Positions 11,872 through 28,921 of a stretch of DNA of 64,000 nucleotides are shown here, piece by piece. Positions within the stretch are counted from its first letter, which is position 1. Every line of letters starts with the position of its first letter. A program made the position numbers and the translations under genes. The stretch spans positions 62,001 to 126,000 of the forward strand of contig NZ_CP058532.1 in assembly GCF_013401515.1 (NCBI RefSeq), read 5' to 3'. The stretch comes from Halorarum halophilum. Its GTDB lineage: Archaea > Halobacteriota > Halobacteria > Halobacteriales > Haloferacaceae. Under the pieces are notes generated by a model. The model was not told the DNA's origin. It worked only from the letters and a program-made list of their open reading frames with translations, and made no database searches.

Positions 11872-11946
11872 CACTTACTATCGCACCCCACCAAAGAAGA
11901 AGTAGGTCAGGAAAACTGGCCCACCCGAATGGAGAGTGACAACGCA
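11872..11946 (+). promoter_or_regulatory. Promoter with 5' hairpin, unit 1
   Basis: TATA box CACTTACTATC (11872-11882). The hairpin GGTCAG-GAAAA-CTGGCC (11905-11921, with one G-U pair) begins 33 bases later, near the expected mRNA start. CACCCGAATGGAG follows and provides a ribosome site for ATG 11947. Confidence 0.7.
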
Positions 11947-12267
11947 ATGGCAAGTCTGTACGAACCGGAAGAGGCCGAGAGCGCGAGAGAACACCTCGAC
12001 GAGATGGAGGCGACGATCGTCGAAGACGCGGTCGACCTGTACGACCTCGTCTCAGGCGTCGAGATGACCGCCGCTGACGTAGCCGCCGAGCTCGAGTTCG
12101 TCGACGAAGACGAAGGCTCGCTCGAAGACGTCGACCTGGCGGTCGAGATGCTGGACGAGCTGCTGGGCGACAAGATGCTGTACCTGAACCGCCAGAAGCG
12201 CCGCGTCGAAGGGCTGCTCGAGGAGTACCGCATGATCTCCGCGGATCTCGAGGAGGCTGGGTTCTGA
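11947..12267 (+). CDS. Acidic helical protein
   Basis: 106 residues from ATG 11947, chosen by alignment with sister leaders in which GGAG precedes the start. An in-frame ATG at 11929 is possible. It is almost entirely predicted helix with heptad-like spacing (LEDVDLAVEMLDELLGDKMLYL), so a coiled-coil dimer is likely. First gene of an operon running to 13906. Function unknown. Confidence 0.7.
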   Translation: MASLYEPEEAESAREHLDEMEATIVEDAVDLYDLVSGVEMTAADVAAELEFVDEDEGSLEDVDLAVEMLDELLGDKMLYLNRQKRRVEGLLEEYRMISADLEEAGF

Positions 12268-12431
12268 TGAGCGTCGGGAAGGAGTTCGAGGTCGAGCGCG
12301 AGCACTCGCGCTACGAGAACGCGCTCGAAGACATCGAGCAGCTCGCACAGGACGGCATCGAGATGTTCGACGTCGACTCGAAGAACGAGGCGCTGCGTCG
12401 CATCCGTGACCTCGCCGAGGAGGTGCGCTGA
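12267..12431 (+). CDS. Small acidic helical protein
   Basis: 54 residues, MSVGKEFEVEREHSRYENAL and so on, with long charged helices. TGATG junctions at both ends. Function unknown. Confidence 0.6.
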   Translation: MSVGKEFEVEREHSRYENALEDIEQLAQDGIEMFDVDSKNEALRRIRDLAEEVR

Positions 12432-12532
12432 TGTCGCCCTGGCTCGCAGAAGCACGCCGTCGGGCGTTCTGCGGTGCGTGCGAGGCCGGCGTCGAACACG
12501 GCGACTGCGCGCGGTCGGGAGGTGACCGCTGA
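12431..12532 (+). CDS. 33-residue cysteine-containing micro-protein
   Basis: An N-terminal basic helix (PWLAEARRRAF) is followed by CGAC and a third cysteine. It might bind zinc with a partner. Coupled by TGATG to both neighbours. Confidence 0.5.
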   Translation: MSPWLAEARRRAFCGACEAGVEHGDCARSGGDR

Positions 12533-12669
12533 TGGCCACCGTCGTGCACGACGGGGTCGAGTGCGAGGTCGTCGACGAAGAGACGCACTACGACAAGCGC
12601 ATGCTGCGAATCGAGGGACCCGACCGCCGTGGCTGGGTCTTCGACACCGACGTCGAGGAGGTGGCGTGA
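12532..12669 (+). CDS. Small beta-rich protein
   Basis: 45 residues (MATVVHDGVECEVVDEETHY and so on, with GWVFDTD near the end). It looks like a tiny antiparallel beta sheet. TGATG coupling on both sides. Function unknown. Confidence 0.6.
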   Translation: MATVVHDGVECEVVDEETHYDKRMLRIEGPDRRGWVFDTDVEEVA

Positions 12670-12914
12670 TGCGCCGAGTCCACGCCGAAGGGCTGCGCGA
12701 GCGGGCGAACATGCGCGAGGCGGCGCGAACCAGCGATGGTGGTCGCACCGACTACGTGTTCCTGTGCCGGCACTGCGGCGCGGAGCACGGCGAGAAGCGG
12801 CACTACGGCTCGTGCCCCGAGTGCGACGAGACGCCACCGACCGAGTGGTCGTCGACGATGGTGTTCCCAGAAGACGTCGCGGATCGCCAGGCGGAGATTC
12901 GGGGGGCCGCCTGA
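12669..12914 (+). CDS. Zinc-ribbon protein
   Basis: 81 residues. CRHCGAEHGEKRHYGSCPEC is a textbook zinc ribbon (CxxC, 13 residues, CxxC) in the middle, with a basic N-terminal helix. It is a candidate nucleic-acid or protein adaptor. Part of the 11.9-13.9 kb operon. Confidence 0.75.
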   Translation: MRRVHAEGLRERANMREAARTSDGGRTDYVFLCRHCGAEHGEKRHYGSCPECDETPPTEWSSTMVFPEDVADRQAEIRGAA

Positions 12915-13309
12915 TGGCCGACATCGCCGACCGCAAGGCGCGGGCGCTCGAGGAGATCGCCGAGGTGAAGATCGCCGAGGATGTGCCCGAGGAGCAGTAC
13001 CGTGACTCGTTCGTCGAGGCCGCGATGGACGTCCTGTGCACGATGGTGACGCAGGCGTCGATGGAGTGGGACGAAGAAGAGGGCGAAGGCGCGGGTGACG
13101 ACTACATGCATCCGATGGACGTCGTCGATGTCGAGAACGTGCAGAACGTGTACGTGACCGACGCGCCGTACCGGGCGCCGATGGTCGTGCTGCAAGTCGA
13201 GGAGTGCCCGACGTACGCGAAGCTGCTGACGGAGACTCGTGAAGTGTGGGTTCGAACGAAGCCGGCGCTCAGCTCCGAGAAGACGTGGGCGCGCTTCCAG
13301 GTGCGATAG
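12914..13309 (+). CDS. Hypothetical protein
   Basis: 131 residues. The helical N-terminal half contains AAMDVLCTMVTQASMEW. The C-terminal half has strands (NVYVTDAPYRAPMVVLQV) and a basic end (SSEKTWARFQVR). No family recognised. Confidence 0.7.
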   Translation: MADIADRKARALEEIAEVKIAEDVPEEQYRDSFVEAAMDVLCTMVTQASMEWDEEEGEGAGDDYMHPMDVVDVENVQNVYVTDAPYRAPMVVLQVEECPTYAKLLTETREVWVRTKPALSSEKTWARFQVR

Positions 13310-13348
13310 GATGCGCGGCCCGTCGCAGCAATCAGGTGGAGGGGTGAA

Positions 13349-13462
13349 GTGGTAGTGGCGTACCTGCTGACCGCACTCATCGTGTGGCTCGGCGGGTTCC
13401 TGCTCTGCGTCGCGATCTACAGGGCGCTGACCGCAACGGTAGACGATATGTTACAGCAATGA
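13349..13462 (+). CDS. 37-residue single-span membrane protein
   Basis: A GTG start at 13349 (or GTG 13355) follows a GGAGGGG ribosome site. The protein is one hydrophobic helix (YLLTALIVWLGGFLLCVAIY) with a short polar tail. Function unknown. Confidence 0.5.
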   Translation: MVVAYLLTALIVWLGGFLLCVAIYRALTATVDDMLQQ

Positions 13463-13515
13463 CGACACACGCAGTAGAAGACAAGCACGGCGATGAGCTC
13501 GAGGAGGCGGCCTGA
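13459..13515 (+). CDS. 18-residue coupling peptide
   Basis: MTTHAVEDKHGDELEEAA, overlapping the stop before it and the ATG after it. It carries GAGGAGG at its 3' end, the ribosome site for the next gene. It may exist only to link translation. Confidence 0.3.
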   Translation: MTTHAVEDKHGDELEEAA

Positions 13516-13700
13516 TGGCGTTCCTCGAAACGGAGAGCGACGCTCGCATCCACCTGGTTGGGTTCCCGAACCTCGCCGAGGTCGAGCTGTCGATACGGCC
13601 AGACGATCGCGACGAGAAGGCGCTGTTCGTCTCACTGAGTAGCGAGCAGGTGGACGAGCTCGTCGACCGACTCGAGTCGATGCAGGAGAAGGTGTGCTGA
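13515..13700 (+). CDS. Hypothetical protein
   Basis: 61 residues with strands (RIHLVGFPNLAEVELSI) and a C-terminal helix (SSEQVDELVDRLESMQEK). TGATG junctions at both ends. It resembles small alpha-beta dimerising proteins, but no family is recognised. Confidence 0.65.
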   Translation: MAFLETESDARIHLVGFPNLAEVELSIRPDDRDEKALFVSLSSEQVDELVDRLESMQEKVC

Positions 13701-13906
13701 TGCGGCGCCGAAGAACCCCGAGGATGGACCCGCCCGAACCGCCCGAGCCGGGCCCGCACCGCTACACCGTGCTGGTGGCGTACTGCTACGAATGTCGCGA
13801 GGTGTTCGGACCGACGCTGGCGGAGAACGTGGGCGAGGAGCTCGCGCGGAACCACCTGGGCCACCTGACGAAGACCATCGACGAGTGGGAGCACGTCGAG
13901 TACTGA
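13700..13906 (+). CDS. Possible single zinc-finger protein
   Basis: 68 residues. A proline-rich basic start (RRRRTPRMDPPEPPEPGP) is followed by CYEC and, 28 residues on, HLGH: a CxxC...HxxH arrangement like one zinc finger. Last gene of the operon. The shared GC-rich 3' element begins a few bases after the stop. Confidence 0.65.
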   Translation: MRRRRTPRMDPPEPPEPGPHRYTVLVAYCYECREVFGPTLAENVGEELARNHLGHLTKTIDEWEHVEY

Positions 13907-13914
13907 CTCCCGCG

Positions 13915-13937
13915 CTCCGCTTTTGCGCGCCGCCCCG
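13915..13937 (+). repeat. Shared 3' spacer element A, copy 1
   Basis: A GC-rich block built on CTCCGCTTTTGCGC followed by GCCGCCCCG, 8 bases after a stop codon. Its 23 bases are identical to the copy at 21506. Weaker copies are at 15523, 18537, 23597, 26275 and 27428. Confidence 0.65.
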
Positions 13938-14130
13938 CGCCTGATGCAGCCCCCTGCGTGGATCTTGTAGGGCACTGTCGTCGGCCGGTTCGGGCCATGA
14001 CTCCCACACTAATCAGTTATCTGGACAGTCGTTGAATCTGTGGGTACACGGGCGTGTATACACGAGGGCCTCACGCCGTCTCCTGGTTGTCCGCCGAGTC
14101 GTTGTGCCCCGTCATGTAAGATAATAGAAA

Positions 14131-14205
14131 TACTTAATATCGTATCACTCCTATGAAAGAATGGACACCGAGGAAAAACGGTGGCCATCTGGAGAGTGAC
14201 CAGAG
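14131..14205 (+). promoter_or_regulatory. Promoter with 5' hairpin, unit 2
   Basis: TATA box TACTTAATATC (14131-14141). Hairpin CACCG/CGGTG (14166-14170, 14179-14183), extended by GG/CC beyond a mismatch, with an A-rich loop. GGAG at 14191-14194 precedes ATG 14206. Confidence 0.7.
14161..14199 (+). CDS. 12-residue leader reading frame in the hairpin
   Basis: MDTEEKRWPSGE then TGA. The ATG is 30 bases from the TATA box start, so it would open the mRNA. It parallels the 11-residue leader frame at 25508. Whether it is translated is unknown. Confidence 0.3.
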   Translation: MDTEEKRWPSGE

Positions 14206-14673
14206 ATGACACAGCAGACCCAGGCGACTGACGCACAGACCACCCAGAAGCCGCTGACGCAGGTCGACGACTTCGACCCGACCCAGCACGTCGTGGGGTT
14301 CAACGCCGCGACGATGAAGCGCGCGAAGTGGGAGGAGTTCGAGTTCACCGTCCTCGAGAGCGGCAACGTCGAGGTGCGGAACGCCTCGCACGGGGACGAC
14401 GCAGACGCGCACGTGTACCACGTGGTGACCGACGCATCGGGCAACCCGAAGTGGTGCCTCCACGCGCTCGAAGACGACGTCGACGACGACTGGGAGCCGT
14501 GCCCAGCGATGGCGTTCCACGCGGCGCCGAAGAACCGTGCGACGGGCAAGGACACCGAGGACCTCATCGCCGACGGCGAGTACCGCGTGTGCAAGCACGC
14601 GCTCGCGTACGCTCGGAACGAAGCGATCGTCCGGACAGTGCGCCAGGTGAAGCGCGACGGTGGTGAGAACTGA
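14206..14673 (+). CDS. SWIM-like zinc-binding protein
   Basis: 155 residues. A beta-rich centre (EFTVLESGNVEVRNAS, VYHVVTDASGNPKWCLH) leads to CPAMAFH and finally YRVCKHALAYA. The CKHALA ending and the run of C and H residues resemble SWIM zinc fingers (CxC...CxH) of haloarchaea, with an acidic insertion. SWIM domains bind DNA or proteins. First gene of a unit that runs to about 15517. Confidence 0.6.
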   Translation: MTQQTQATDAQTTQKPLTQVDDFDPTQHVVGFNAATMKRAKWEEFEFTVLESGNVEVRNASHGDDADAHVYHVVTDASGNPKWCLHALEDDVDDDWEPCPAMAFHAAPKNRATGKDTEDLIADGEYRVCKHALAYARNEAIVRTVRQVKRDGGEN

Positions 14674-14864
14674 TGGAAGTCGCCGAGTCACTCGACGACG
14701 ACGCGCGCTACGCCCTGCGTGGTGACGACGTCACGGTCAAGTTCGACGACCTGCGGTGGGCCGGCGGGAGCTGGGTGCTCACCAACGATGACGTGGAGGT
14801 CGCGATTGTGCGGTACAACGCCGTACCTGAACTGAGCGAGCTGTACGAGGAGGTCGAGAACTGA
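14673..14864 (+). CDS. Hypothetical beta-rich protein
   Basis: 63 residues (YALRGDDVTVKFDDLRWAGG, SWVLTNDDVEVAIVRY). TGATG start junction, and its stop overlaps the next ATG. Function unknown. Confidence 0.65.
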   Translation: MEVAESLDDDARYALRGDDVTVKFDDLRWAGGSWVLTNDDVEVAIVRYNAVPELSELYEEVEN

Positions 14865-15118
14865 TGGCTTCGAGCATCGACGGCATCAAGAACGTGCTGT
14901 CGCTCGGCCGGGTGCGCTACATCGTGGTGCGCCCGCACCGTGGGATGCACGACGGGTACGAGGTAATCAACGCGTGGAACCAGGACCAGATGCGCGAGTT
15001 CGGCCCCGACCAGCTGGACGAAGCCATCGAGTACGCACAGGACCAGGCCGCGTACGGGACGTTCGACCAGGTGCTGGCCGTCTTCCCGCCGGAGCGGAAG
15101 GACGAGGAGGAGAACTGA
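14864..15118 (+). CDS. Hypothetical protein
   Basis: 84 residues with a strand (RVRYIVVRPHRG) and helices (FGPDQLDEAIEYAQDQAAY). Compact alpha-beta protein. TGATG coupling on both sides. Function unknown. Confidence 0.65.
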   Translation: MASSIDGIKNVLSLGRVRYIVVRPHRGMHDGYEVINAWNQDQMREFGPDQLDEAIEYAQDQAAYGTFDQVLAVFPPERKDEEEN

Positions 15119-15267
15119 TGCCCGTTCTTGGCGGCGGTCGCGTGGGCACGTACGAAATCACCTGCTGCGGAGAACGCCAGACGTGGCGGGGGACACCCGG
15201 GCCGTGGGGTGTGAACATGAAGTGCGAGGGCTGCGGATCGCACGTCACCGCGCGGAGGGTCGACTGA
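15118..15267 (+). CDS. Small zinc-binding protein
   Basis: 49 residues. YEITCCGERQTW supplies a CC pair and KCEGCGSH a CxxC knuckle, so one zinc site is likely. TGATG coupling. Confidence 0.65.
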   Translation: MPVLGGGRVGTYEITCCGERQTWRGTPGPWGVNMKCEGCGSHVTARRVD

Positions 15268-15416
15268 TGAAGTTCGCGATCGTCGAGCACCCGGGGACCG
15301 CCGATGAACGCCAGGTCGCCAGCGGATTCATCTCGCGCTACGCTGCGCTGAAGGCGATGAGCGAGCTCGGTCAGGACCCGGTGAAGCACGAAGTGATTCG
15401 CGACTACGCGTCGTGA
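15267..15416 (+). CDS. Hypothetical protein
   Basis: 49 residues (MKFAIVEHPGTADERQVASG, then an alanine-rich helix). It overlaps a possible GTG-started micro-gene at 15413. Function unknown. Confidence 0.6.
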   Translation: MKFAIVEHPGTADERQVASGFISRYAALKAMSELGQDPVKHEVIRDYAS

Positions 15417-15517
15417 CCCTGCTCAGCCAGTTCGTCCGGGCATGGCGCTGGCAACGCAGTCAGGAGTGCCACCACCGGCGCTGGCACGAGGACCCGCTGT
15501 TCGGGCCGCACCAGTAG
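15413..15517 (+). CDS. 34-residue basic micro-protein
   Basis: GTGA overlap with the previous stop. It is rich in Trp, Arg, Gln and His (FVRAWRWQRSQECHHRRW), which is unusual in this acidic proteome. The GTGCCACCAC motif lies inside at 15466. Real coding is uncertain. Confidence 0.35.
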   Translation: MTLLSQFVRAWRWQRSQECHHRRWHEDPLFGPHQ

Positions 15518-15522
15518 CCGGC

Positions 15523-15545
15523 TTCCGCTTTTGCGTCGGGCCCCG
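15523..15545 (+). repeat. Shared 3' spacer element A, copy 2
   Basis: TTCCGCTTTTGCG followed by a GGGCCCCG block, six bases after a stop codon. A diverged relative of the copies at 13915 and 21506. Confidence 0.5.
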
Positions 15546-15637
15546 TCGTCCTGCGGATCGGCGTCCCACGCGCCTGTCATGTCGCCCCCTCACCGCGCCG
15601 TGGTGCGGCAATCCGGCGCATGACAGATAATAGAAAT

Positions 15638-15706
15638 CTTTAATATCGTATCTCCCCTATGATAGGATAGGCCCTGGGGAAACTCAGGTCACCTGGAGTG
15701 AAGAAG
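15638..15706 (+). promoter_or_regulatory. Promoter with 5' hairpin, unit 3
   Basis: TATA box CTTTAATATC (15638-15647). Hairpin CCTGGG-GAAA-CTCAGG (15673-15688), a 6-bp stem with one G-U pair closed by a GNRA-type tetraloop. GGAG at 15695-15698 precedes ATG 15707. Confidence 0.75.
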
Positions 15707-17383
15707 ATGGCAAGTGACAACGCAGAGACGACGGAGTACAGCACGGGACAGATTGGCGTCGACGAAGAGCGCATCATCGACGAGCTGATTTTCAGCCAGG
15801 CCGAGGGGCTCCCGGACGGCATCCGGGAGGTGGCCCAGAACGGGCTCGATGCGCCCGGCTCGACCCGCGTCGAAATCGACGTGACGCCCGAGCGGACGGT
15901 GGTCACCGACGACGGTGATGGCATGGACCTGACCGACGAGAAGGTCCGGGAGTTCCTGACCCACCTCGGCAAGAGCACGAAGCGCGGCGACGACGAGACC
16001 ATCGGCCAGTTCGGAATCGGCTTCGGTCAGGCCCTCGCGAAGGGCAAGGTCACCGCCCAGAGCGGGAGCTCGAAGGTCGAGTTCGACGCGAAGAACTGGT
16101 ACCGCGACTACCGCCTGTACGAGACGGACGACTCGGTCTCGGGCTTCCGCGTCGAGATAGAGCACTACGAGGACGAAGTGCCCGCCGCCGACTCGAGCGA
16201 GTGGGACGACTACGTGGAGGACCTCGTCGACCGGTTCCAGTTCATGGAGCTGGTGAAGGACACCGAAGTCCACGTCAACGGCGAGCGCATCTCGGACAAG
16301 CGCCCCGAGGACGAGCAGGACGGCAACTACGAGATCGTCGACACCGACGTCGCGTACATGGTGCTGAAGCACTCCGGCTTCGACTGGGTCCGCATCTACA
16401 GCGCCGGGCTCTTCGTCACCGAGAACTCCGGGCTGGGGCTGGCGGGCACCGTCGTGACGAAGAAGAACCTGACGCTGAACACCGCGCGCAACTCGATTAC
16501 GTCGGGCTGTGAGGTGTGGGCCGACGTCGAAGAGGAGCTCGCCGAGGCGCGGGCGTCCATCCTCAGCGACGTGGGCGACGACAAGATTTCGAAGGCCGGG
16601 CGTCGCGCCATCGTCCGCATGTTCCGGGAAGGGCACGACGAGTTCCGCGACCGGGAAGTGCTGAAGAAGGCGAACGGCGAGATGACGACCATCGACGACG
16701 TGCTGAGCGCCGAGCGCGTGATGTTCGCCGACCAGTCGGACAAGGCGGGCGGGAAGCTGGCCGACCACGGCGAGCAAGTCCTGATGGTCACCGACAAGGC
16801 GACCCAGGAGCTGATTGCCGGCGCCGAGCGCGAGCAGCTGACGCTCCCGCCCGAGAAGAACGTGCAGGCGACCGCGGCGAGCCAGGGCATCAGCAACGGC
16901 TACGACCTGCTCCCGCTCGAGGAGTTCCACTCGAAGCCGCTGGTGATGGCTCGCATCCTGCGCGAGAAGATGGCGGGCTACAGCCCGTACAGCCTGAACC
17001 GGGAGATCGTGCCGGGCGACGACTCGAGCGCGAACGCCTGGACGCTCCCCGACCCCGACAAGGTCTCGCCCGCCGCGCAGAAGTACCTCGACTCGATAGA
17101 CAGCGACTACGACACGTACGTCGCGATCACCGACACCGCCTACAGCGCGCTGGCGTCGGAAGTCCTCGTTCTCGAGCTCTGGCGCATCCTGGCGCACGAG
17201 TTCGCGCACACGGACGACTCGACCGGCGAGCCGAACCACGGGACGGGCTTCCACCGCCGGTTCCGCGCCATCCTGGACGCGACCCAGCCGGCGGCCGTCG
17301 ACCTGATGAACGAGATTCGCAAGGACGGCGTGACCGACGTGTTCAGCCGGTACGACCACGGGGTCCCGCACGCCCGGGCCTGA
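15707..17383 (+). CDS. GHKL-type ATPase fused to an HExxH metal-binding domain
   Basis: 558 residues. The N-terminal third carries the Bergerat (GHKL) ATP fold: N-box EVAQNGLDA (residues ~41-49), DDGDGM (~68) and GQFGIGFG (~101-108), as in Hsp90, MutL and type II topoisomerase B subunits. About residues 490-520 contain AHEFAHTDDSTG (H497, E498, H501) and then HGTGFHRRF, a zinc-protease-like HExxH motif. The combination is unusual. It might be a chaperone-like or DNA-acting ATPase with protease activity. ATG 15707 has GGAG 8 bases upstream. It is the only gene of its unit. Confidence 0.85.
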   Translation: MASDNAETTEYSTGQIGVDEERIIDELIFSQAEGLPDGIREVAQNGLDAPGSTRVEIDVTPERTVVTDDGDGMDLTDEKVREFLTHLGKSTKRGDDETIGQFGIGFGQALAKGKVTAQSGSSKVEFDAKNWYRDYRLYETDDSVSGFRVEIEHYEDEVPAADSSEWDDYVEDLVDRFQFMELVKDTEVHVNGERISDKRPEDEQDGNYEIVDTDVAYMVLKHSGFDWVRIYSAGLFVTENSGLGLAGTVVTKKNLTLNTARNSITSGCEVWADVEEELAEARASILSDVGDDKISKAGRRAIVRMFREGHDEFRDREVLKKANGEMTTIDDVLSAERVMFADQSDKAGGKLADHGEQVLMVTDKATQELIAGAEREQLTLPPEKNVQATAASQGISNGYDLLPLEEFHSKPLVMARILREKMAGYSPYSLNREIVPGDDSSANAWTLPDPDKVSPAAQKYLDSIDSDYDTYVAITDTAYSALASEVLVLELWRILAHEFAHTDDSTGEPNHGTGFHRRFRAILDATQPAAVDLMNEIRKDGVTDVFSRYDHGVPHARA

Positions 17384-17714: not shown

Positions 17715-17776
17715 TACTTATTATCCATACCAGAGAAGGATAGGACGGACCTCAGAAACAGAGGCCATCTGGAGAC
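17715..17776 (+). promoter_or_regulatory. Promoter with 5' hairpin, unit 4
   Basis: TATA box TACTTATTATCC (17715-17726). Hairpin CCTC/GAGG (17750-17753, 17761-17764) with loop AGAAACA. Start codon 17777 follows directly. Confidence 0.65.
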
Positions 17777-18088: not shown

Positions 18089-18174
18089 TCGAGCTCGCGA
18101 TCGCGCTCACCGTCGTCGCGCTCGGGCTCGCTGGCTTTTTCGCCGCGCTCGAGTACCTCGACTGGTGACGCGCG

Positions 18175-18186: not shown

Positions 18187-18220
18187 AAGTGTCCGTCGCC
18201 TACCGTGCGAGTGAGTACCA

Positions 18221-18535: not shown

Positions 18536-18536
18536 C

Positions 18537-18633: not shown

Positions 18634-18704
18634 ACTTAATATCGTATCACACCTCTAATAGAATGGACCTCGGCAAAACACGGTCCACCCGAATGGAGAA
18701 ACCG
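18634..18704 (+). promoter_or_regulatory. Promoter with 5' hairpin, unit 5
   Basis: TATA box CACTTAATATC (18634-18644). Hairpin TGGACC/GGTCCA (18664-18669, 18682-18687) with an A-rich loop. CACCCGAATGGAG follows, giving a ribosome site 6 bases before ATG 18705. Confidence 0.7.
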
Positions 18705-20320: not shown

Positions 20321-20371
20321 ATATTTATTATCGCCCCAGTCCAAGGATAAGATATGGGACAAAAAACCCAT
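20321..20371 (+). promoter_or_regulatory. Promoter with 5' hairpin, unit 6
   Basis: TATA box ATATTTATTATC (20321-20332). ATG 20354 is 33 bases after its first base and forms one arm of the hairpin ATGGG/CCCAT (20354-20358, 20367-20371) with loop ACAAAAAA. Confidence 0.7.
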
Positions 20372-22277: not shown

Positions 22278-22326
22278 CACTTATTACCCTACCCAACGAA
22301 GGATAAGATATGGGACAAAAATCCCA
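22278..22326 (+). promoter_or_regulatory. Promoter with 5' hairpin, unit 7
   Basis: TATA box CACTTATTACCC (22278-22289). ATG 22310 is 32 bases on. Hairpin TGGGA/TCCCA (22311-22315, 22322-22326) with an A-rich loop. Confidence 0.75.
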
Positions 22327-22573: not shown

Positions 22574-22581
22574 GCGGGCTC

Positions 22582-23066: not shown

Positions 23067-23114
23067 CACTTATACTCGCTTCCCTCCTATCATAGAATGA
23101 GGACCAAAATCCTC
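23067..23114 (+). promoter_or_regulatory. Promoter with 5' hairpin, unit 8
   Basis: TATA box CACTTATACTC (23067-23077), preceded by GTTGATAAAGAAA. Hairpin GAGGA/TCCTC (23099-23103, 23110-23114) with loop CCAAAA: all five pairs differ from the GGGA/TCCC type but are complementary. Confidence 0.75.
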
Positions 23115-23127
23115 ACCCAACGGAACA

Positions 23128-23223
23128 ATGGACTACGTGACCCACCTACGGCAACGGAAAATGGCGCGAGCGCGAGACGAGTGTGTGTGGCCTTCGGACC
23201 TCAACGAGGACGACGAGCGATGA
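23128..23223 (+). CDS. 31-residue basic-to-acidic peptide
   Basis: MDYVTHLRQRKMARARDECV and so on, with its stop overlapping ATG 23220 as ATGA, the coupling typical here. The alternative is that the frame from ATG 23097 reads straight through into the gene at 23220. Confidence 0.35.
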   Translation: MDYVTHLRQRKMARARDECVWPSDLNEDDER

Positions 23224-23555
23224 GCTTCACACCTACCCACGAGCTGGCGGAGCGCCTCGCGGATCACCTTGCCCCCATCTCAAGCGACGAGGGGCAAGCG
23301 AAAATCGCGGACTCATCCCACGTCTACGAGGTGTGGGAGGACGGGGAAGTGACCCTCACCAAAGCGGGTCAATTCTTTCGGAAGCGGACGATGAAGCAGG
23401 CCCAAGAGCCGTGGCTCCCACGCAACCAACAACTCTGGGACGTGCCGGAGGGGAAGGACCACCAATCCTACGTGCTGCTGTCGAGGGAGGGACTCACGGT
23501 CATCAAAGAGTACATGGAGGAAGGCGACTTCGGGTATTGCTACCTCACGCCGTGA
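23220..23555 (+). CDS. Hypothetical protein
   Basis: 111 residues. The frame is open back to ATG 23097 in the hairpin, which would give a 152-residue protein starting MRTKILTQ. The region with viral composition starts at 23220. An N-terminal helix (HELAERLADHLAPI) precedes a charged alpha-beta region ending in GDFGYCYLTP. No family recognised. Confidence 0.6.
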   Translation: MSFTPTHELAERLADHLAPISSDEGQAKIADSSHVYEVWEDGEVTLTKAGQFFRKRTMKQAQEPWLPRNQQLWDVPEGKDHQSYVLLSREGLTVIKEYMEEGDFGYCYLTP

Positions 23556-23838
23556 CCTAACACGGCTCACATGCCACCACGGACGGTGGCTCGTGTTACG
23601 CTTTTCCGCACCGCCCCGCCGCTCGTGACCATTGCTTCCACTCCGATCGCGAGCTCGACGAGCATCGTCTCACCGCATGACCCCTACACTCGATGCGGAT
23701 TTCGACCCTGTCTGCGGGTTGTGACCGGGCCCATATCCCCTGTTTCCGCTCCGCACCCCGCGCGACACCGCTCGGCTATCCGGCACGCACGCCGCTAATC
23801 GCACGACGTGGCGGACATGAGTTATGATGATAAAGAAA
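23556..23838. other. Intergenic spacer
   Basis: About 280 bases without a supported gene. ATGCCACCAC motif at 23571, spacer element A at 23597, CATGACCCCTACACT at 23676. Confidence 0.5.
23597..23618 (+). repeat. Shared 3' spacer element A, copy 5
   Basis: Contains CGCTTTTCCGCACCGCCC, the same 18 bases as the copy at 18539. Confidence 0.6.
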
Positions 23839-23889
23839 CACTTATACTTGTATGCATCCTATCAAGAAGTATGGAACCAAAAATTCCAT
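23839..23889 (+). promoter_or_regulatory. Promoter with 5' hairpin, unit 9
   Basis: TATA box CACTTATACTTG (23839-23850), preceded by GATGATAAAGAAA. Hairpin ATGGAA/TTCCAT (23871-23876, 23884-23889), 6 bp, loop CCAAAAA. The start codon is the 5' arm. Confidence 0.8.
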
Positions 23890-24131
23890 CCCGAGCGGAG
23901 AGCGACGGCAACGAGGCCACCGCGACTGTCGAGATAACGCTGGGCCACGTGGCCGAGTCGGGCGAGTTGGCCCTGGCGCTGGCCGAGAAGGCCCGCGAGC
24001 TGGAGGAGTGCGCGGAGACGGACGTCCCGAACCGCCAGCCAGTGCACGAGCTGCACGCGGCGATTTGCCGCGGGGCGAGCGAGGAGTTCCAGCGAGTGTA
24101 CAGCGAATGGCGCGAGGAGCGGAGGGCCTGA
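23871..24131 (+). CDS. Hypothetical protein with hairpin-encoded N-terminus
   Basis: 86 residues, MEPKIPSRAESDGN and then mostly helix (ELALALAEKARELEECAE). Leaderless start predicted 32 bases after the TATA box. It is followed by three short zinc or acidic genes and a membrane micro-gene in one unit. Function unknown. Confidence 0.65.
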   Translation: MEPKIPSRAESDGNEATATVEITLGHVAESGELALALAEKARELEECAETDVPNRQPVHELHAAICRGASEEFQRVYSEWREERRA

Positions 24132-24132
24132 G

Positions 24133-24294
24133 ATGTACGACCGAGACAGCCCTGTCGAGTGGACGGGGGAAGCGCACCTGGTGACGGTCTCGTGCGACGC
24201 TGGATGCGGGAAGTCGCTGACGGTAGCCGAGGAAGCCGCGGTCGACGGGCCAGTCACGTGCAACGACTGCGAGCGGAAGGAGGAGCTGTACTGA
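24133..24294 (+). CDS. Zinc-binding protein
   Basis: 53 residues. CDAGC near the middle and CNDC near the end form a likely zinc site. TGATG coupling to the next gene. Function unknown. Confidence 0.65.
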   Translation: MYDRDSPVEWTGEAHLVTVSCDAGCGKSLTVAEEAAVDGPVTCNDCERKEELY

Positions 24295-24455
24295 TGGCGA
24301 GTTGCAATGCCGACCCGTTCTGCTCGGAAGAGGGGACGCGGGTCGTCGAGTTCGACCCGGCGCAGTGGGAGCACGACGAGCTCCGCATGTGCCCGCCCTG
24401 CGCGAAGGGTGTCGAGCGCCTCGATGGGGTCCGCCGGGTCCGGGTGATCGCATGA
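24294..24455 (+). CDS. Zinc-binding protein
   Basis: 53 residues with early cysteines (C4 and C10) and a later CPPC knuckle, so probably one zinc site. It ends in basic RRVRVIA. ATGA coupling to the next gene. Confidence 0.65.
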   Translation: MASCNADPFCSEEGTRVVEFDPAQWEHDELRMCPPCAKGVERLDGVRRVRVIA

Positions 24456-24643
24456 GGACGTACGTCGGGTTCGAGGAGCCGCGCGAGGGAGAGCTGGTGT
24501 GGGACGAGGAAGTCGCGTACGCGATGGAGGGGCCGAGGGGGATGCGCCGGGCGAAGGCCGCGATCCGCGAGGCGCTCGATGATGGGGCCGTGATGGGAAC
24601 GGTCGTGCTCGTCGACGGGAAGGTCGATGAGGTGCGCGTGTGA
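24452..24643 (+). CDS. Hypothetical protein
   Basis: 63 residues. A strand (MRTYVGFEEP) and helix (RAKAAIREALDDGAV) lead to a final strand (TVVLVDGKVDEVRV): a small alpha-beta protein. Function unknown. Confidence 0.65.
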   Translation: MRTYVGFEEPREGELVWDEEVAYAMEGPRGMRRAKAAIREALDDGAVMGTVVLVDGKVDEVRV

Positions 24644-24717
24644 TAACGATCGTCGTCGCCATGCTGGTGCTGGCATGCGGACTGAAGATGTTCACCGTGG
24701 CGGCCGAGGTGATGTAA
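24640..24717 (+). CDS. 25-residue membrane micro-protein
   Basis: GTGA overlap with the previous stop. MITIVVAMLVLACGLKMFTV and a short tail form one membrane span. Comparable to the unit-ending micro-gene at 22582. Confidence 0.45.
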   Translation: MITIVVAMLVLACGLKMFTVAAEVM

Positions 24718-24781
24718 CCCGCCCGGCTCCCGCGTGCCGTGGCGCGGTTACCCGGTGAGATGCTTCATGTTGATAAAGATA

Positions 24782-24831
24782 CACTTATACCTGCTTACAC
24801 CAATCATCAATTATGGATTCAAAAAATCCAT
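24782..24831 (+). promoter_or_regulatory. Promoter with 5' hairpin, unit 10
   Basis: TATA box CACTTATACC (24782-24791). Hairpin ATGGATT-CAAAA-AATCCAT (24813-24831) is a perfect 7-bp stem whose sequence differs from neighbouring units at paired positions. Confidence 0.85.
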
Positions 24832-25325
24832 CTGAGCGGGACGAGCGAGTCGACGTCGAAGTCGGTGACGTGTGGGTAGCGCGTCGCGACGACGTGAGCG
24901 AAGCCGAGAAGCTGTCGTTGTGCGACGACGCGCCGCTGCTGAAGTCGTTGTGGGAAGACGAAGACGTCGTGCGACGAGCGTGTGAAGTCGGGCTGCGGGA
25001 CGAAGAAGTCGGGCGAGCGACGAAGCCGCAGATGGAGTGCGTAGAGGGCGACGCGTGGGCGCAGATGTGGGTCGACGTCGTCGCCGTCGATGGGACGTGG
25101 GCGGGAAGCGTCGTCGTGACGATGTCGACGTCGTTGGAGCCGTGGGGCGGAGACGTGAGTGGGTGGGCGAGCGAGATGGGCGAAGTCGAAGCGGGAGGGC
25201 GAGAGTGGGTCGTGACGCGCGAGACGTTGAGTGAAGACGACGTGTGGGTAGCGACGGGCGAGTGGCAAAGAGAAGTGTTGAGCGAAGCCGGGCTGAGCGA
25301 GAGCGACGTGTTGGGCGACGAGTAG
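24813..25325 (+). CDS. Acidic protein A of a divergent paralogue pair, unusual composition
   Basis: 170 residues. A paralogue of the gene at 27548: both share a PL-K--W---DVV core (PLLKSLWEDEDVV here, PLKQMWRSDDVV there), then a LRD(D/E)E motif and a later VDVV/VDLV strand block. The codons differ from neighbours: GAAGTC and GACGTC strings and few CTC or GAGCTC words, with a purine-rich coding strand. The spacer after it also resembles that after 28039, so a whole unit was probably duplicated or imported. Function unknown. Confidence 0.7.
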   Translation: MDSKNPSERDERVDVEVGDVWVARRDDVSEAEKLSLCDDAPLLKSLWEDEDVVRRACEVGLRDEEVGRATKPQMECVEGDAWAQMWVDVVAVDGTWAGSVVVTMSTSLEPWGGDVSGWASEMGEVEAGGREWVVTRETLSEDDVWVATGEWQREVLSEAGLSESDVLGDE

Positions 25326-25473
25326 CGCGCGACGCGTCGTCGCCGCCGTCGTCGTGGGTCGGTTTAGGGCCGGGCCCCGTCGCCTTGCGGATCAGCGTAC
25401 GTACGTACCGACGCGTGTGTACGTACGGACGACCGACGATCGCCCCGTTCACGGGCTGCTCTTGCCGGTCAGG
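25326..25473. other. Spacer after paralogue A
   Basis: Holds CGTCGTCGCCGCCGTCGTCG, GTCGGTTTAGGGCCGGGCCCCG and a GTAC element. The GTCGGTT...GCCGGGCCCCG part is repeated in the same order after the paralogous gene at 27548. Confidence 0.5.
25397..25432. repeat. GTAC-rich intergenic element 4
   Basis: GCGTACGTACGTACCGACGC followed by GTGTGTACGTACGGACGA. Two GTAC clusters separated by GACGCGTGTG. Confidence 0.65.
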
Positions 25474-25545
25474 GCATATTTACATTCGCTTGGCTCCAAG
25501 ATAAAGTATGGCACGAAAAGGCCACCCGACGGAGGAGCGGTGAGC
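25474..25545 (+). promoter_or_regulatory. Promoter with 5' hairpin, unit 11
   Basis: TATA box GCATATTTACATTC (25474-25487). Hairpin TGGC/GCCA (25509-25512, 25521-25524) with loop ACGAAAAG. CACCCGACGGAGGAG follows, a strong ribosome site about 9 bases before ATG 25546. Confidence 0.7.
25508..25543 (+). CDS. 11-residue leader reading frame
   Basis: MARKGHPTEER then TGA, in the position where sister units encode the N-terminus of the main protein. Here it is a separate frame followed by a ribosome site and the real gene. It may control translation, or it may be a fossil of the fused state. Confidence 0.4.
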   Translation: MARKGHPTEER

Positions 25546-25824
25546 ATGCCGGTGAAGAGTGCGGTGTGTGGCGGCTGTGACAGAGCGACGCGGATCGCGT
25601 ACGAGCTCGAGGGCCGGCGGCCGGGCGAGGAGAAGGAGATCGGGCCCGACGTCCGCTGGGAGTGCAAGTGCGGGACGACCGGCCGACTGTGGTACGACTG
25701 GGTCGAGAGCGAGTGGCGCATGTGGGAGGGCTGGCGCCTGGCCGAGCCGAGTTCCGTCCGGGATGTCCAGCGCAGAGACGTCGGTCGAGGAGTGAGCGCC
25801 AGGGCGGGCCACCCGCTCGGATAG
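25546..25824 (+). CDS. Zinc-ribbon protein
   Basis: 92 residues. CGGC near the N-terminus and CKC at residue ~44 with a tryptophan-rich stretch (LWYDWVESEWRMWEGW) after it. Probably a zinc ribbon with an aromatic surface. Start set by the GGAGGAG ribosome site. Function unknown. Confidence 0.7.
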   Translation: MPVKSAVCGGCDRATRIAYELEGRRPGEEKEIGPDVRWECKCGTTGRLWYDWVESEWRMWEGWRLAEPSSVRDVQRRDVGRGVSARAGHPLG

Positions 25825-25893
25825 GCCGTTACCCCGCGCGGCGTGGCGCGGTATCCCGGCGCGATCGCTGCATGCATCATGTTGATAAAGCAA

Positions 25894-25944
25894 CACTTAT
25901 TATCGTATCCAGAGTAGGATAAAATATGGGAACCAAAAATCCCA
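25894..25944 (+). promoter_or_regulatory. Promoter with 5' hairpin, unit 12
   Basis: TATA box CACTTATTATCG (25894-25905), preceded by GTTGATAAAGCAA. Hairpin TGGGA/TCCCA (25927-25931, 25940-25944). ATG 25926 is 32 bases after the TATA start. A GTGGCGCGG/ATCCCGGC spacer block lies at 25843-25860. Confidence 0.75.
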
Positions 25945-26264
25945 CCCGAGAGGAATACAGCGAGCCGCCCATCGACCTGCGCCCCCGAATCACGCGGGGT
26001 CAGCACCTGCACCTCGAGGGCGCGGGCGAGGGAGTCGTGGATAGCGTCAACGTGGGCTACCCCCTCGAGCAGCGCGACGAGGGGATCGTCGTGAACCGTG
26101 AACAGCTGGTGACCCGCGTCGATATCGTGCGAGAGGGCGAGTGCATCGTCATGGGCCTCGCGGAACTCGAGGACCGCCTCGAGCGTGGCACCGTCGAAGT
26201 ACTGACGTGGAGTGACCGCGATGCCGAGCTCCACGAGGCGTTCCTGCGAGGCGAGCTGCTGTAG
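25926..26264 (+). CDS. Hypothetical protein with hairpin-encoded N-terminus
   Basis: 112 residues, MGTKNPTREEYSEPP and then a beta-rich domain (RGQHLHLEGAGEGVVDSVNV, ECIVMGLAEL) and a C-terminal helix. It could be an OB- or PUA-like small domain, but no signature is clear. Monocistronic, followed by spacer element A. Confidence 0.65.
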   Translation: MGTKNPTREEYSEPPIDLRPRITRGQHLHLEGAGEGVVDSVNVGYPLEQRDEGIVVNREQLVTRVDIVREGECIVMGLAELEDRLERGTVEVLTWSDRDAELHEAFLRGELL

Positions 26265-26274
26265 TCGCCCCGCG

Positions 26275-26297
26275 TTCCGTTTTTCCGCCGCGCCCCG
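26275..26297 (+). repeat. Shared 3' spacer element A, copy 6
   Basis: TTCCGTTTTTCCGCCGCGCC then CCG, about 10 bases after a stop. Diverged copy. Confidence 0.5.
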
Positions 26298-26337
26298 TCG
26301 ATCGCGACCCTTGTTTCCGGTACGCTTGTTATCAGAA

Positions 26338-26387
26338 TCTTTATACTTGCATCCTGAGTAGGTTAAGATATGGGACAAAAAATCCCC
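26338..26387 (+). promoter_or_regulatory. Promoter with 5' hairpin, unit 13
   Basis: TATA box TCTTTATACTTG (26338-26349). ATG 26370 is 32 bases on. Hairpin GGGA/TCCC (26372-26375, 26383-26386). The loop has one more A than in units 7 and 14, which shifts the encoded frame. Confidence 0.7.
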
Positions 26388-27176
26388 ACCCGAACGACGC
26401 GACGCCGATTCCTGGGAGGAGTCGGCGCTGGCCTGGCGGCGACGCTGGCGGGGAGCGTTCCCGCGGCGGCTGAGCCGGGACTGCTGGGAGTACCGCGTGG
26501 GAGGACGTGCGGATCGCCGACGGACGCCGACTCGCTGGAGCTGCGCGACGCCGAGCGTAGCACGAGCGAGTACGCCTGGAGCGAGCCGAAGCCGGGACGG
26601 ACGAAGTTCGAGGTCGTGGTGTACCAGACGAGCGCGGTCGCCGAGACAGCAGCCGAACAGGGCGTCCCGGAGAGCATGCCTATCGACCTCGTCCGCATGC
26701 ACCTCGAGCTGGCGGAGCCGTACGCATTCCGCACGCGCCGCGGTGGGACGCTGGAGTACGAGGAGCCTGGCGGGATGCACGAGACCTGGGACGACCTGTA
26801 CGAGCAGGGTGTCCAGGACGTCGACGCGGATGGGGTGCTCGTCCTGACGGGCGACGTCGACCCGGAGCTCGCAGGACACGGCAAGCAGGGCCTCGGGGTG
26901 TCGGAAGCAGGACGCATTGCCGAGCTCAAGTGGCGCCGAATCGGGAAGGCGTACTCGCGCGGAGAGAATCAGCTCGTCACCGCCATGCACGAGGTCGGCC
27001 ACGTGTTCGGGCTGGAGCACGACGACTACGAGTTCACGGAGCGGGAGACGTCGCGGGGCCTCGAGGAGTACTGGGCGACGGCGATGGTCCGGACTGACCT
27101 GGTGGAGGAGGCGTACGGGAAGCAAGCCCAGTTCAGCACGCGATCGCGCGGGAAACTGCTGGCCCGCCTCGACTGA
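26370..27176 (+). CDS. Tat-exported metzincin-like zinc metalloprotease
   Basis: 268 residues. Residues ~8-33 are a twin-arginine signal peptide (TRRRFLGGVGAGLAATLAGS then VPAAAEP). The catalytic site is HEVGHVFGLEH (H207, E208, H211, H217), the full HExxHxxGxxH metzincin motif, with a downstream methionine (ATAMVRTD, M239) as a possible Met-turn. It should be folded in the cytoplasm, exported by Tat and act outside the cell, perhaps on the S-layer during exit or entry. The N-terminal MGQKIPT is encoded by the leader hairpin. It is the only gene of its unit. Family assignment is from motifs alone. Confidence 0.85.
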   Translation: MGQKIPTRTTRRRFLGGVGAGLAATLAGSVPAAAEPGLLGVPRGRTCGSPTDADSLELRDAERSTSEYAWSEPKPGRTKFEVVVYQTSAVAETAAEQGVPESMPIDLVRMHLELAEPYAFRTRRGGTLEYEEPGGMHETWDDLYEQGVQDVDADGVLVLTGDVDPELAGHGKQGLGVSEAGRIAELKWRRIGKAYSRGENQLVTAMHEVGHVFGLEHDDYEFTERETSRGLEEYWATAMVRTDLVEEAYGKQAQFSTRSRGKLLARLD

Positions 27177-27191
27177 GGAATGTTATCAGAA

Positions 27192-27240
27192 TCTTTATAT
27201 CTGCATACTGAGAAGATAGAAGTATGGGACAAAAATCCCA
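27192..27240 (+). promoter_or_regulatory. Promoter with 5' hairpin, unit 14
   Basis: TATA box TCTTTATATCTG (27192-27203). Hairpin TGGGA/TCCCA (27225-27229, 27236-27240). It lies only 15 bases after the protease stop codon. Confidence 0.75.
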
Positions 27241-27418
27241 CCCAACGGACGAGCGGGTAGTCAAGGACTCGCTGTGGTACGACGAGGAGTACGAGGAGGT
27301 CGTGCGAGTCGTGAGCGTGAACCGAAACAGTGCGACAGTCGAGGGGCCGAGCGGGATGAGCTGTGCCCCGTTCTCGTGCTTCGGCGAGTCGCTGCGGTAC
27401 GAGGAGTTCGACGGGTAG
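27224..27418 (+). CDS. Small protein with MGQKSHP N-terminus
   Basis: 64 residues. The first residues come from the hairpin. The rest (EEVVRVVSVNRNSATVEGPS) looks like a small beta barrel ending in an acidic patch. Function unknown. Monocistronic and followed by spacer element A. Confidence 0.65.
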   Translation: MGQKSHPTDERVVKDSLWYDEEYEEVVRVVSVNRNSATVEGPSGMSCAPFSCFGESLRYEEFDG

Positions 27419-27427
27419 GCGGAGCAG

Positions 27428-27450
27428 TTCCGCTTTCGCGCAGCGCCCCG
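27428..27450 (+). repeat. Shared 3' spacer element A, copy 7
   Basis: TTCCGCTTTCGCGCAGCGCC then CCG, within 10 bases of a stop. Confidence 0.5.
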
Positions 27451-27514
27451 CCACCGACCGCCCGGATCTCCATGCGACGCCCGGAGATTACCAGCAGTTA
27501 CAGCAATCTGACAT

Positions 27515-27564
27515 ACCTTTATTATTGTACCCTGAGAAGTTCAAGATATGGGACCAAAATCCCA
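27515..27564 (+). promoter_or_regulatory. Promoter with 5' hairpin, unit 15
   Basis: TATA box ACCTTTATTATTG (27515-27527). ATG 27548 is 33 bases on. Hairpin TGGGA/TCCCA (27549-27553, 27560-27564), loop CCAAAA. Confidence 0.75.
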
Positions 27565-28039
27565 CCCAGACGGAGAAGAAGTAGAAGTGAGAGATGACGT
27601 CGTCGTCGCGTTGCAGTGCGATGAAGCGTCGTGGAAAATCAATTCAGAGCGCGATGACGATGTCGTGATGAGCGAAGTCGAGAGCGCGGAGCCGCTGAAG
27701 CAGATGTGGAGAAGCGATGATGTCGTCGCCGCCGTCGTGTCGTTGATGCTGCGGGATGACGAAGAAGCAGTGCGAGCGTGGGCGACCCAGTCTTTTGTGG
27801 AGGGTCCAGTCGAAGCGTTGGGTCGTGAAGTGAGTTGGGCGAGTGTGTGCGTGGATCTTGTTGACGACGCGGGCGAAGAAGATGCAGCCTGTGTCGCGGT
27901 GGTGCTGAAGCGCGAGTGGGAGGAGATGTGGGAAGCGCGCGGGAAGTCGGAGATGCCGGTGCCGAAGGAGCAAGTCGCTGTCGAAGATGTCGAGTGGAAG
28001 GGGGAAGTGTGGATGGTGGAGAGATGTGAAGTGATGTAG
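27548..28039 (+). CDS. Acidic protein B of a divergent paralogue pair
   Basis: 163 residues, MGPKSHPDGEEVEVRDD. Paralogue of the gene at 24813, with the same GTC/GAC/GAA-rich, purine-rich coding strand. An in-frame GTG at 27587 after GGAG could be an alternative start. It contains three cysteines that the sister copy lacks. Mostly helical with a VCVDLV strand. Function unknown. Confidence 0.7.
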   Translation: MGPKSHPDGEEVEVRDDVVVALQCDEASWKINSERDDDVVMSEVESAEPLKQMWRSDDVVAAVVSLMLRDDEEAVRAWATQSFVEGPVEALGREVSWASVCVDLVDDAGEEDAACVAVVLKREWEEMWEARGKSEMPVPKEQVAVEDVEWKGEVWMVERCEVM

Positions 28040-28150
28040 AGCGGGTAGCGTCGCCGTCGGGCGACGTTGTCGTGTGTCGGTTCAGCGCCGGGCCCCGCCG
28101 ATCGCCGATGATCGTCACGTTCGTTTCCATGCCTAACGCTGATAAAGAAA

Positions 28151-28200
28151 CCTATATATCTGTCAGATGAGAAGTAAGAAGTATGGGACAAAAAATCCCA
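28151..28200 (+). promoter_or_regulatory. Promoter with 5' hairpin, unit 16
   Basis: TATA box CCTATATATCTG (28151-28162), preceded by GCTGATAAAGAAA. Hairpin TGGGA/TCCCA (28184-28188, 28196-28200) with a loop one base longer than in unit 14. Confidence 0.75.
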
Positions 28201-28422
28201 ACCCGAGCCGAGCTCGCCAAGAAACGCCGCAGCCTCGTGAACGAGTTCCCGTTCTCCGTGCCAGTCGAGAAGGAGCGCCGGATCGAGATGTCCGTGCCAG
28301 AGCGACAGCAGGAGAAGCTCGAGCAGATCGCCGCCGACCTGGAGCTCGAGATCGTGAACATGCGCCCTGACGGGAAGTCGATGCAAGGCTACCGCGACCG
28401 ATTCACGCTGGAGGTGCAGTAG
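28183..28422 (+). CDS. Small protein, possible ribbon-helix-helix fold
   Basis: 79 residues, MGQKIPTRAELAKKRRS. Residues ~35-62 (RRIEMSVPERQQEKLEQIAA) resemble the strand and first helix of an RHH regulator. A second helix is short. It could be a DNA-binding autoregulator. This is a weak call. Confidence 0.55.
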   Translation: MGQKIPTRAELAKKRRSLVNEFPFSVPVEKERRIEMSVPERQQEKLEQIAADLELEIVNMRPDGKSMQGYRDRFTLEVQ

Positions 28423-28445
28423 GGCCTTCGCGGGCCCGTACCGCC

Positions 28446-28658
28446 ATGGAGTTGCAGTTCGATACCGTCGTCGACGATGGACGCGTGGATGAGTGTGAGG
28501 AGGTCGAACCGCGGCTGGGTGCGGATCGATCGTTCGAGACCGTGCGGACCGGGGGACCGTCGTTTCACCTGATGCCCGATGGGACGCTGACGCTGGAGTC
28601 GGAGAGTGGGAACGTCGCTGTCCCGGAGTTCGGAACGAACGTGACCGTTCTGGACTGA
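28446..28658 (+). CDS. Hypothetical beta-rich protein
   Basis: 70 residues (MELQFDTVVDDGRVDECEEV, then LMPDGTLTLESESGNVAVPE). It looks like a small antiparallel sheet. 23 bases separate it from the gene before. Function unknown. Confidence 0.6.
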   Translation: MELQFDTVVDDGRVDECEEVEPRLGADRSFETVRTGGPSFHLMPDGTLTLESESGNVAVPEFGTNVTVLD

Positions 28659-28707
28659 CCGGCTCTCGCCCGATACCCCGCGCGGCAAGTCGCTGCATCC
28701 CGGTAAC

Positions 28708-28742
28708 GTGTGGGTACGTATGTACGTGTCAGTACGTACAGA
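28708..28742. repeat. GTAC-rich intergenic element 5
   Basis: CGTGTGGGTACGTATGTACG followed by TGTCAGTACGTACAGAT. The GTGCCACCACAG motif follows at 28769. Confidence 0.6.
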
Positions 28743-28870
28743 TGCCCTGACCCCGAACAGGAGTTCAGTGCCACCACAGCCGTCAGTCCACGCCACTATT
28801 CTGCACGTAATCAGCTATGCAATTCACAAACGCACGTCTCACGCTGTCTACGGGCCGATTACGACCAGAA

Positions 28871-28921
28871 CCTATATATCTGCTACGTGACAAGATTAGG
28901 ATGAGATGGAACAAAAATCCA
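28871..28921 (+). promoter_or_regulatory. Promoter with 5' hairpin, unit 17
   Basis: TATA box CCTATATATCTG (28871-28882), identical to that of unit 16. Hairpin TGGA/TCCA (28907-28910, 28918-28921). Both arms have lost one base pair relative to the consensus. Confidence 0.65.

Follow-up and report, generated by a model that had tools for sequence, protein, structure and literature searches.

The DNA of Halorarum halophilum analyzed here, a stretch of 64,000 nucleotides (the window), is part of a haloarchaeal assembly contig of 148,857 bp (C4), which we regard as a tailed virus or the episomal form of one. It contains an array of 17 transcription units, and it is strongly supported that the ∼15–25 first nucleotides of their mRNAs fold as a hairpin from about the predicted +1. 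We infer, with a probability of roughly 0.45, that this sequence-independent 5′-terminal hairpin protects the array mRNAs from 5′-end-dependent decay.

Position, loops and covariation of the hairpin

Direct reading of the 17 sites, both visual and scripted, showed that the promoter-plus-stem arrangement given for them in a preliminary description of this DNA holds at every one, and a hairpin marks the predicted start of transcription in 17/17 (Table 1). The stems are of 4–7 bp and begin 30–36 bases past the listed TATA start, and the arm pairs named in that description are present, with GGTCAG/CTGGCC and CCTGGG/CTCAGG each including one G-U. A search of related viruses, which had been suggested there, revealed arrays with the same hairpin and other stems. 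The C4 terminase is 82–85% identical to those of three IMG/VR contigs, of which G001 and G002 have identical sites in their overlap, so that there are two distinct relatives only, R (G002) and Q (G003). The curated set comprises 49 sites (17 from the window, 19 from R and 13 from Q), and at 49/49 the stem starts between −2 and +4 of the predicted start, with a mode of +1. The A-rich character reported for the loops is equally evident in the larger set, as they are 76% A with almost no U (0.6% T), and they are 4–12 nt long with no fixed sequence.

A promoter-anchored scan for hairpins with such A loops recovered 16/17 sites, all on the + strand, the one at 18634 exceeding the loop limit (12 nt). 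The same scan gave two spurious matches in the rest of the window, at 51975 (+) and 36350 (−), none in the remaining 85 kb of C4, and 8 in 600 kb of host strand, or ∼0.2 per 17 kb. The summed stem score of the 17 sites is 220 versus 156 ± 8.5 (maximum 183) for dinucleotide shuffles, and random windows of the same GC-rich genome have a mean of 193 ± 12.6. Stem strength by itself is thus modest for such a genome, and the strong evidence that the hairpin is not due to chance is the combination of fixed position, A-rich loops and covariation. No Rfam family matched above its gathering score in window positions 11800–29000.

Because the loops vary in length, aligning the full set with MAFFT gave a result unsuited to counting pairs, and the stems were therefore aligned by hand. 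Of the stems at the 49 sites 29 are distinct, as are 26 of the inner four-pair stems, the five innermost positions each show GC, CG, AT and TA, and swapping arms among the distinct stems restores full pairing in 24/650 combinations. In a chimera test, sites were cut in the A-run, the 3′ halves were exchanged within each virus, and the best crossing stem was summed, which gave 670.5 for the native sites versus 489.5 ± 16.9 for the exchanged ones (z 10.7; z 7.8 when the common GGGA-type stems are removed). The paired changes noted previously are therefore borne out, with 26 inner stems and all four pair types at each inner position. Since the sites in the chimera test had been picked for having stems, a promoter matrix was also trained on window upstream sequence only. 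It found 15 array promoters in R, 15/15 of them curated hairpin sites, and 11 in Q, namely 10 curated hairpin sites and Q 31206, whose irregular hairpin (GGT-A-TGG/CCA-A-ACC) was judged by eye and is outside the 49. In the reverse test a matrix trained on R and Q found 15 promoters in the window array, all of which are hairpin sites.

Orthologous genes, as defined by protein similarity across the three viruses, keep the hairpin with different stems. Those before gene 17777 and its orthologues are CCTC/GAGG, CCTCG/CGAGG and CTTCG/CGAAG, and gene 25926 has TGGGA/TCCCA versus GGAAC/GTTCC in its R orthologue. The N-termini of the latter pair differ (MGTKNPTREEYSEPPI, MEPKSSHRAEYSEPPI), and the two proteins agree only past the part encoded by the hairpin (MGTKNPTRE-EYSEPPI, MEPKSSHRA-EYSEPPI). 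Structure rather than sequence is conserved, and the selected property is shape. An operator at the DNA level was rejected because the arms vary in concert, and the earlier interpretation as an array-wide, covarying RNA-level hairpin at the predicted mRNA 5′ end stands as far as structure is concerned.

The GGGA-type stem pattern matched 41 stretches of viral contigs and was genuine only in the known relatives; the best of the remaining matches, in phages richer in AT, look fortuitous and were discarded. Among 391 Halobacteria genomes R1 is present in this genome only, and no hairpin was found with nine GHKL-ATPase homologues in other Halobacteria.

Table 1. Promoters and 5′ hairpins of the 17 array units (window coordinates).
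Site	Element	Position	Strand	Hairpin	Start codon and downstream elements	Remarks
1	promoter + leader hairpin	11872..11921	+	11905-11921 GGTCAG-gaaaa-CTGGCC	CACCCGAATGGAG, then ATG 11947	TATA CTTACTAT; Shine-Dalgarno leader type
2	promoter + leader hairpin	14131..14183	+	14166-14183 CACCG-aggaaaaa-CGGTG	CTGGAG, ATG 14206	stem prolonged by GG/CC past A.G mismatch; orthologue stems in two relatives CACCGGT/ACCGGTG, CATCG/CGATG
3	promoter + leader hairpin	15638..15688	+	15673-15688 CCTGGG-gaaa-CTCAGG	CCTGGAGTGA, ATG	orthologue stems CACTGGG/CCCGGTG and TACTGAGG/CCTCGGTG
4	promoter + leader hairpin	17715..17764	+	17750-17764 CCTC-agaaaca-GAGG	CTGGAG, ATG 17777	
5	promoter + leader hairpin	18634..18687	+	18664-18687 TGGACC-(12 nt)-GGTCCA	ATGGAG, ATG 18705	weakest loop of the set; 5′ ATG also open in frame
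6	promoter + hairpin	20321..20371	+	20354-20371 ATGGG-acaaaaaa-CCCAT	ATG 20354 at predicted start	product MGQK...; alternative in-frame GTG downstream of box
7	promoter + leaderless hairpin	22278..22326	+	22311-22326 TGGGA-caaaaa-TCCCA	ATG 22310	
8	promoter + hairpin	23067..23115	+	23098-23115 TGAGGA-ccaaaa-TCCTCA	ATG at 5′ base	likely gene start is downstream ATG 23128
9	promoter + leaderless hairpin	23839..23889	+	23871-23889 ATGGAA-ccaaaaa-TTCCAT	ATG 23871	
10	promoter + leaderless hairpin	24782..24831	+	24813-24831 ATGGATT-caaaa-AATCCAT	ATG 24813	
11	promoter + hairpin	25474..25524	+	25509-25524 TGGC-acgaaaag-GCCA	ATG 25508	opens 11-codon frame MARKGHPTEER*, its stop overlapping a GTG start
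12	promoter + leaderless hairpin	25894..25944	+	25927-25944 TGGGA-accaaaaa-TCCCA	ATG 25926	
13	promoter + leaderless hairpin	26338..26386	+	26372-26386 GGGA-caaaaaa-TCCC	ATG 26370	
14	promoter + leaderless hairpin	27192..27240	+	27225-27240 TGGGA-caaaaa-TCCCA	ATG 27224	
15	promoter + leaderless hairpin	27515..27564	+	27549-27564 TGGGA-ccaaaa-TCCCA	ATG 27548	
16	promoter + leaderless hairpin	28151..28200	+	28184-28200 TGGGA-caaaaaa-TCCCA	ATG 28183	
17	promoter + leaderless hairpin	28871..28921	+	28907-28921 TGGA-acaaaaa-TCCA, GAG/CTC outside	ATG 28906	

Start codons, leaders and the unstructured starts of host genes

The hairpin is found in two layouts. At 37/49 sites it is accompanied by a 5′ ATG, which is at the predicted start in 23 and 1–3 nt off in the others, and the frame of this ATG is open for at least 30 codons at 33/37 sites, which are predicted to be leaderless. 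In the window the ATG lies at the 5′ base of the hairpin, partly within the stem, in 12/17 units, and it is the predicted start codon in most; there is no fitting downstream start in the majority of these 12, with 23067, 25474 and 20321 being less clear. The remaining five window units (the first five in Table 1) have the hairpin upstream of a Shine-Dalgarno-like GGAG and are treated as leader type. At the 12/49 sites without a 5′ ATG the hairpin is inside a short leader, often with GG/CC beyond an A.G mismatch, and between a leader-type hairpin and its ATG lies CTGGAG(TGA) or CCGAAYGGAG. A box resembling CCGAACGGAG is located 3′ of most hairpins and is missing at some sites, and the order seen at most leaderless sites is AUG, hairpin and a GGAGG-like box in the coding region. 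Because the hairpin is kept in both layouts, it is the predicted RNA 5′ end, rather than the start codon, that anchors it at all sites. Some hairpin ATGs open a frame of no more than 10–11 codons, at window 25508–25543 (site 11) and at L027:6814 and L027:7484 in related sequence, and these short frames are possible leader peptides.

The coding potential of the hairpin raises the question of whether the repeated element reflects conservation of an N-terminal peptide (M-x-x-K), or recent duplication of a cassette, with the hairpin as a by-product. Lysine is at codon 4 in 28/33 open frames and the promoter together with the 5′ segment does resemble a repeated cassette, but the 12/49 hairpins lacking a 5′ ATG are non-coding, the 3′ arm is read in frames that differ between sites (SHP vs IPT), and the arms change together between orthologues. 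We regard such an origin as highly improbable, and a reading based on the peptide only was rejected on the first two of these grounds.

Start sites were also compared with those of the host by taking ATGs with a TATA at leaderless spacing and counting stems that begin at −1 to +3. Such stems are present at 31/38 starts in the window, R and Q arrays versus 8/76 in 300 kb of the host chromosome (p 5e-14), and host genes have a lower stem frequency at the start than in their more downstream parts, so that the arrays run counter to a host rule of unstructured starts. By the same measure 16/35 starts are positive in the right-end array of HGTV-1 (NC_021328, ∼128–143.8 kb, L231 128000–143800; small single-gene units on the minus strand), versus 19/161 elsewhere in its genome (p 1.7e-5), and examples of hairpins over its starts are TGGAG-caaaa-CTCCA and TGGC-agaaa-GCCA. 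A hairpin model built from the R and window sites recovered five HGTV-1 sites with E below 0.02 and gave no match in HVTV-1, HCTV-2, HHTV-1, HSTV-1, HSTV-2, HHTV-2 or 46 kb of HF2. These other haloviruses and HF2 together show no clear excess of start-site stems (14/80), and the contrast between them and the HGTV-1 array is smaller (p 0.0025). When HGTV-1 arms are swapped 10/72 still pair, and covariation is weaker evidence there because its arms vary less. A 16.3-kb contig whose terminase is 72% identical to that of HGTV-1 has a similar array with 6/16 start-site stems, and a relative (L235:1–5100, minus strand) has a leaderless single-gene array of the right-end type with a looser start-codon hairpin. 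The statement that no haloviral equivalent is described agrees with the literature that we found, of which our coverage is incomplete, but the HGTV-1 genome contains a looser version.

Candidate functions

In the mechanism that we propose, each array unit would be transcribed from its own TATA promoter, with the start site predicted from TATA spacing, and the 5′ ∼15–25 nt of the mRNA would fold into a near-blunt hairpin at about +1. This would shield the mRNA from a 5′–3′ exonuclease of the RNase J/aCPSF2 type and would also block any 5′-end-processing step that requires unpaired nucleotides, and the ribosome would melt the hairpin on initiating at the leaderless ATG. A candidate nuclease type exists in aCPSF2, an archaeal 5′–3′ exonuclease that is an RNase J orthologue (PMC10663502). 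In Bacillus a hairpin near the 5′ end stabilises mRNAs, the RppH enzyme of B. subtilis needs a 5′ end with two or more unpaired nucleotides, and the bla mRNA of E. coli is stabilised by a 5′ hairpin (PMC3997798). All of the sites share a near-blunt, sequence-free 5′ hairpin and so fit what 5′-end protection would need, and the variability of the loops in both length and sequence suggests that it is the shape that matters.

Several points weigh against protection of the 5′ end. The transcription starts are predicted rather than mapped, the sites of the chimera test were preselected, and the 49 sites are partly related among themselves, with covariation statistics that do not include a phylogenetic null. 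In addition, the conserved downstream CCGAACGGAG box is left unexplained, and a stem on a leaderless start codon should have a cost in translation. Furthermore, the array hairpin is missing at several C4 promoters of this type outside the array, which is therefore not a general need of viral mRNAs. Those promoters have a different leader (window 3890–3965, 30098–30175, 54614–54700 and 60358–60430; C4 18450 and 61009), and orthologues of the 30098 leader are located at L025:17997 and L027:12261. The non-array leaders often contain GGAAC and a Shine-Dalgarno-like GGAG, and in several of them a hairpin pairs the GGAG, for example CACTCC-TGGAAC-GGAGTG near 60400. At C4 72590 (window 10590) and at two loci in relatives, by contrast, the same TGGAACGG motif has no clear hairpin.

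The same hairpin-free promoters, being similar and from the same virus, argue against a role in transcription, in which the nascent hairpin would stop backtracking or aid promoter escape of the archaeal RNA polymerase. The position fixed relative to the predicted start and the independence from sequence would agree with such a role, but no archaeal precedent is known to us and we consider it very unlikely.

The location of the ATG in or beside the stem base in 12/17 units, together with the avoidance of such stems by host starts, is what might be expected of translational control, where the hairpin would occlude leaderless start codons and serve as an operator through which an RNA-binding protein of the virus or the host, or else a modified ribosome, switches the array. 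The array is also a coherent block of small genes, and a factor that binds A-rich, almost U-free loops may be common to it. However, the leader-type units leave both the Shine-Dalgarno-like site and the ATG unpaired, which rules out start-codon occlusion as the function common to all units. The loops (4–12 nt) have neither a constant length nor a fixed sequence, which makes a loop-specific protein less likely, and no candidate binding protein was found. We therefore view translational control as possible but somewhat unlikely.

The downstream box is accounted for if the hairpin enhances translation, with the hairpin and the Shine-Dalgarno-like CCGAACGGAG box recruiting the ribosome to the 5′ end. 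Ribosome recruitment by a hairpin plus box was proposed long ago for the bacterio-opsin mRNA of Halobacterium, and the start of a bop-like gene from a genome of the Halobacteria has the same layout (ATGTTGGAGCTACTACCAACAGCAGTGGAGG). In favour of this role, the box is present after most hairpins and is similar to the GGAG seen in leader-type units; on the other hand, it is absent at some sites, and a Shine-Dalgarno sequence 3′ of the start codon cannot set the P site by the usual geometry. Enhancement is accordingly judged quite improbable. We also entertain, as a rather unlikely reading, that large tailed viruses of haloarchaea mark an entire mRNA regulon with a sequence-free 5′ hairpin that is unlike the leaderless mRNAs of the host, and that the mark would serve survival of decay or selective translation during host shut-off.

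The protection and translational selection of leaderless archaeal mRNAs are poorly understood, and here one shape has been kept at the predicted 5′ terminus through dozens of sequences against the host's unstructured-start rule. The compensatory stems are natural variants for reporter tests, and infection experiments are feasible with HGTV-1, which has been isolated and whose host is known. If confirmed, this would be, to our knowledge, the first described family of structured 5′ ends in archaeal viruses.

The replicon, its genes and comparison with known systems

The viral assignment of C4 is based on coding content. Family matches in the window include the large subunit of a T4-type terminase, ThyX, a helicase resembling UvrD and a DpdA-like protein. 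There are also long open reading frames (ORFs) that resemble family B DNA polymerase and ribonucleotide reductase, as judged by looking at the sequences rather than by a family-library run. Along most of its sequence the terminase shares 25–31% identity with its counterparts in Streptomyces phages, Bacillus phage G and HGTV-1, and no DNA similarity to named phages was found. The DpdA match (window 53265–54557; PF23859, E 1.2e-18) suggests that the viral DNA may carry a 7-deazaguanine modification, and the adjacent ORF (52256–53308) is similar by eye, with no Pfam match.

The description of the array genes as unrelated is largely correct, in that neither Pfam nor PHROG gives a match for the majority of the genes scanned. 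It fails for genes 24813–25325 and 27548–28039, which both match one and the same gene in R and are probably paralogues. Gene 26370–27176, behind a leaderless hairpin, has a Tat-like signal peptide and a match to reprolysin-type metalloproteases. Alternating TACGTACGTAC-type stretches are located between array units (window 17640–17690, 22687–22720, 25397–25435 and 28710–28745) and are possibly terminators or recombination sites.

The nearest haloviral elements are the intergenic repeats (IR) of HF2 (Haloferacalesvirus). Their classes I and II bear promoters that drive early-middle and late units, with a TATA ∼26 bp upstream of the mapped starts (PMC8707807). Like the array sites they recur between the genes of a tailed virus of haloarchaea and carry promoters, but they are conserved by sequence, not by structure. 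Six HF2 repeats inspected by eye had no such 5′ hairpin, IR4.5 contains a 9-bp inverted repeat, and the HF2-type class I/II core (e.g., TCTTTAAGTC) was not seen in the 17 upstream sequences. The right-end array of HGTV-1 is closer in layout, as it has many small genes, each with its own TATA and leaderless ATG and a hairpin over the start. It differs in that only 16/35 starts pass the threshold, its loops are less A-rich and its arms less varied, and its terminase is only 25.5% identical to that of C4.

A cellular counterpart is the bop mRNA of Halobacterium, in which the start codon is near the 5′ end, a hairpin (GTTGG/CCAAC) covers the first codons and GGAGG is in the coding region. This layout indicates that such a hairpin is compatible with a leaderless mRNA in haloarchaea, although bop is a single cellular gene with no array or covarying family and its loop is not A-rich. 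Finally, the bacterial 5′ stem-loops of ompA and papA in E. coli and aprE in B. subtilis (PMC3997798) are like those of the array in having a stem at or near +1, which is a predicted position in the array, and a proposed block to 5′-end-dependent decay. The bacterial structures belong to the untranslated leaders of individual genes, whereas the hairpins described here are archaeal, array-wide and usually overlap an ATG at the predicted start.

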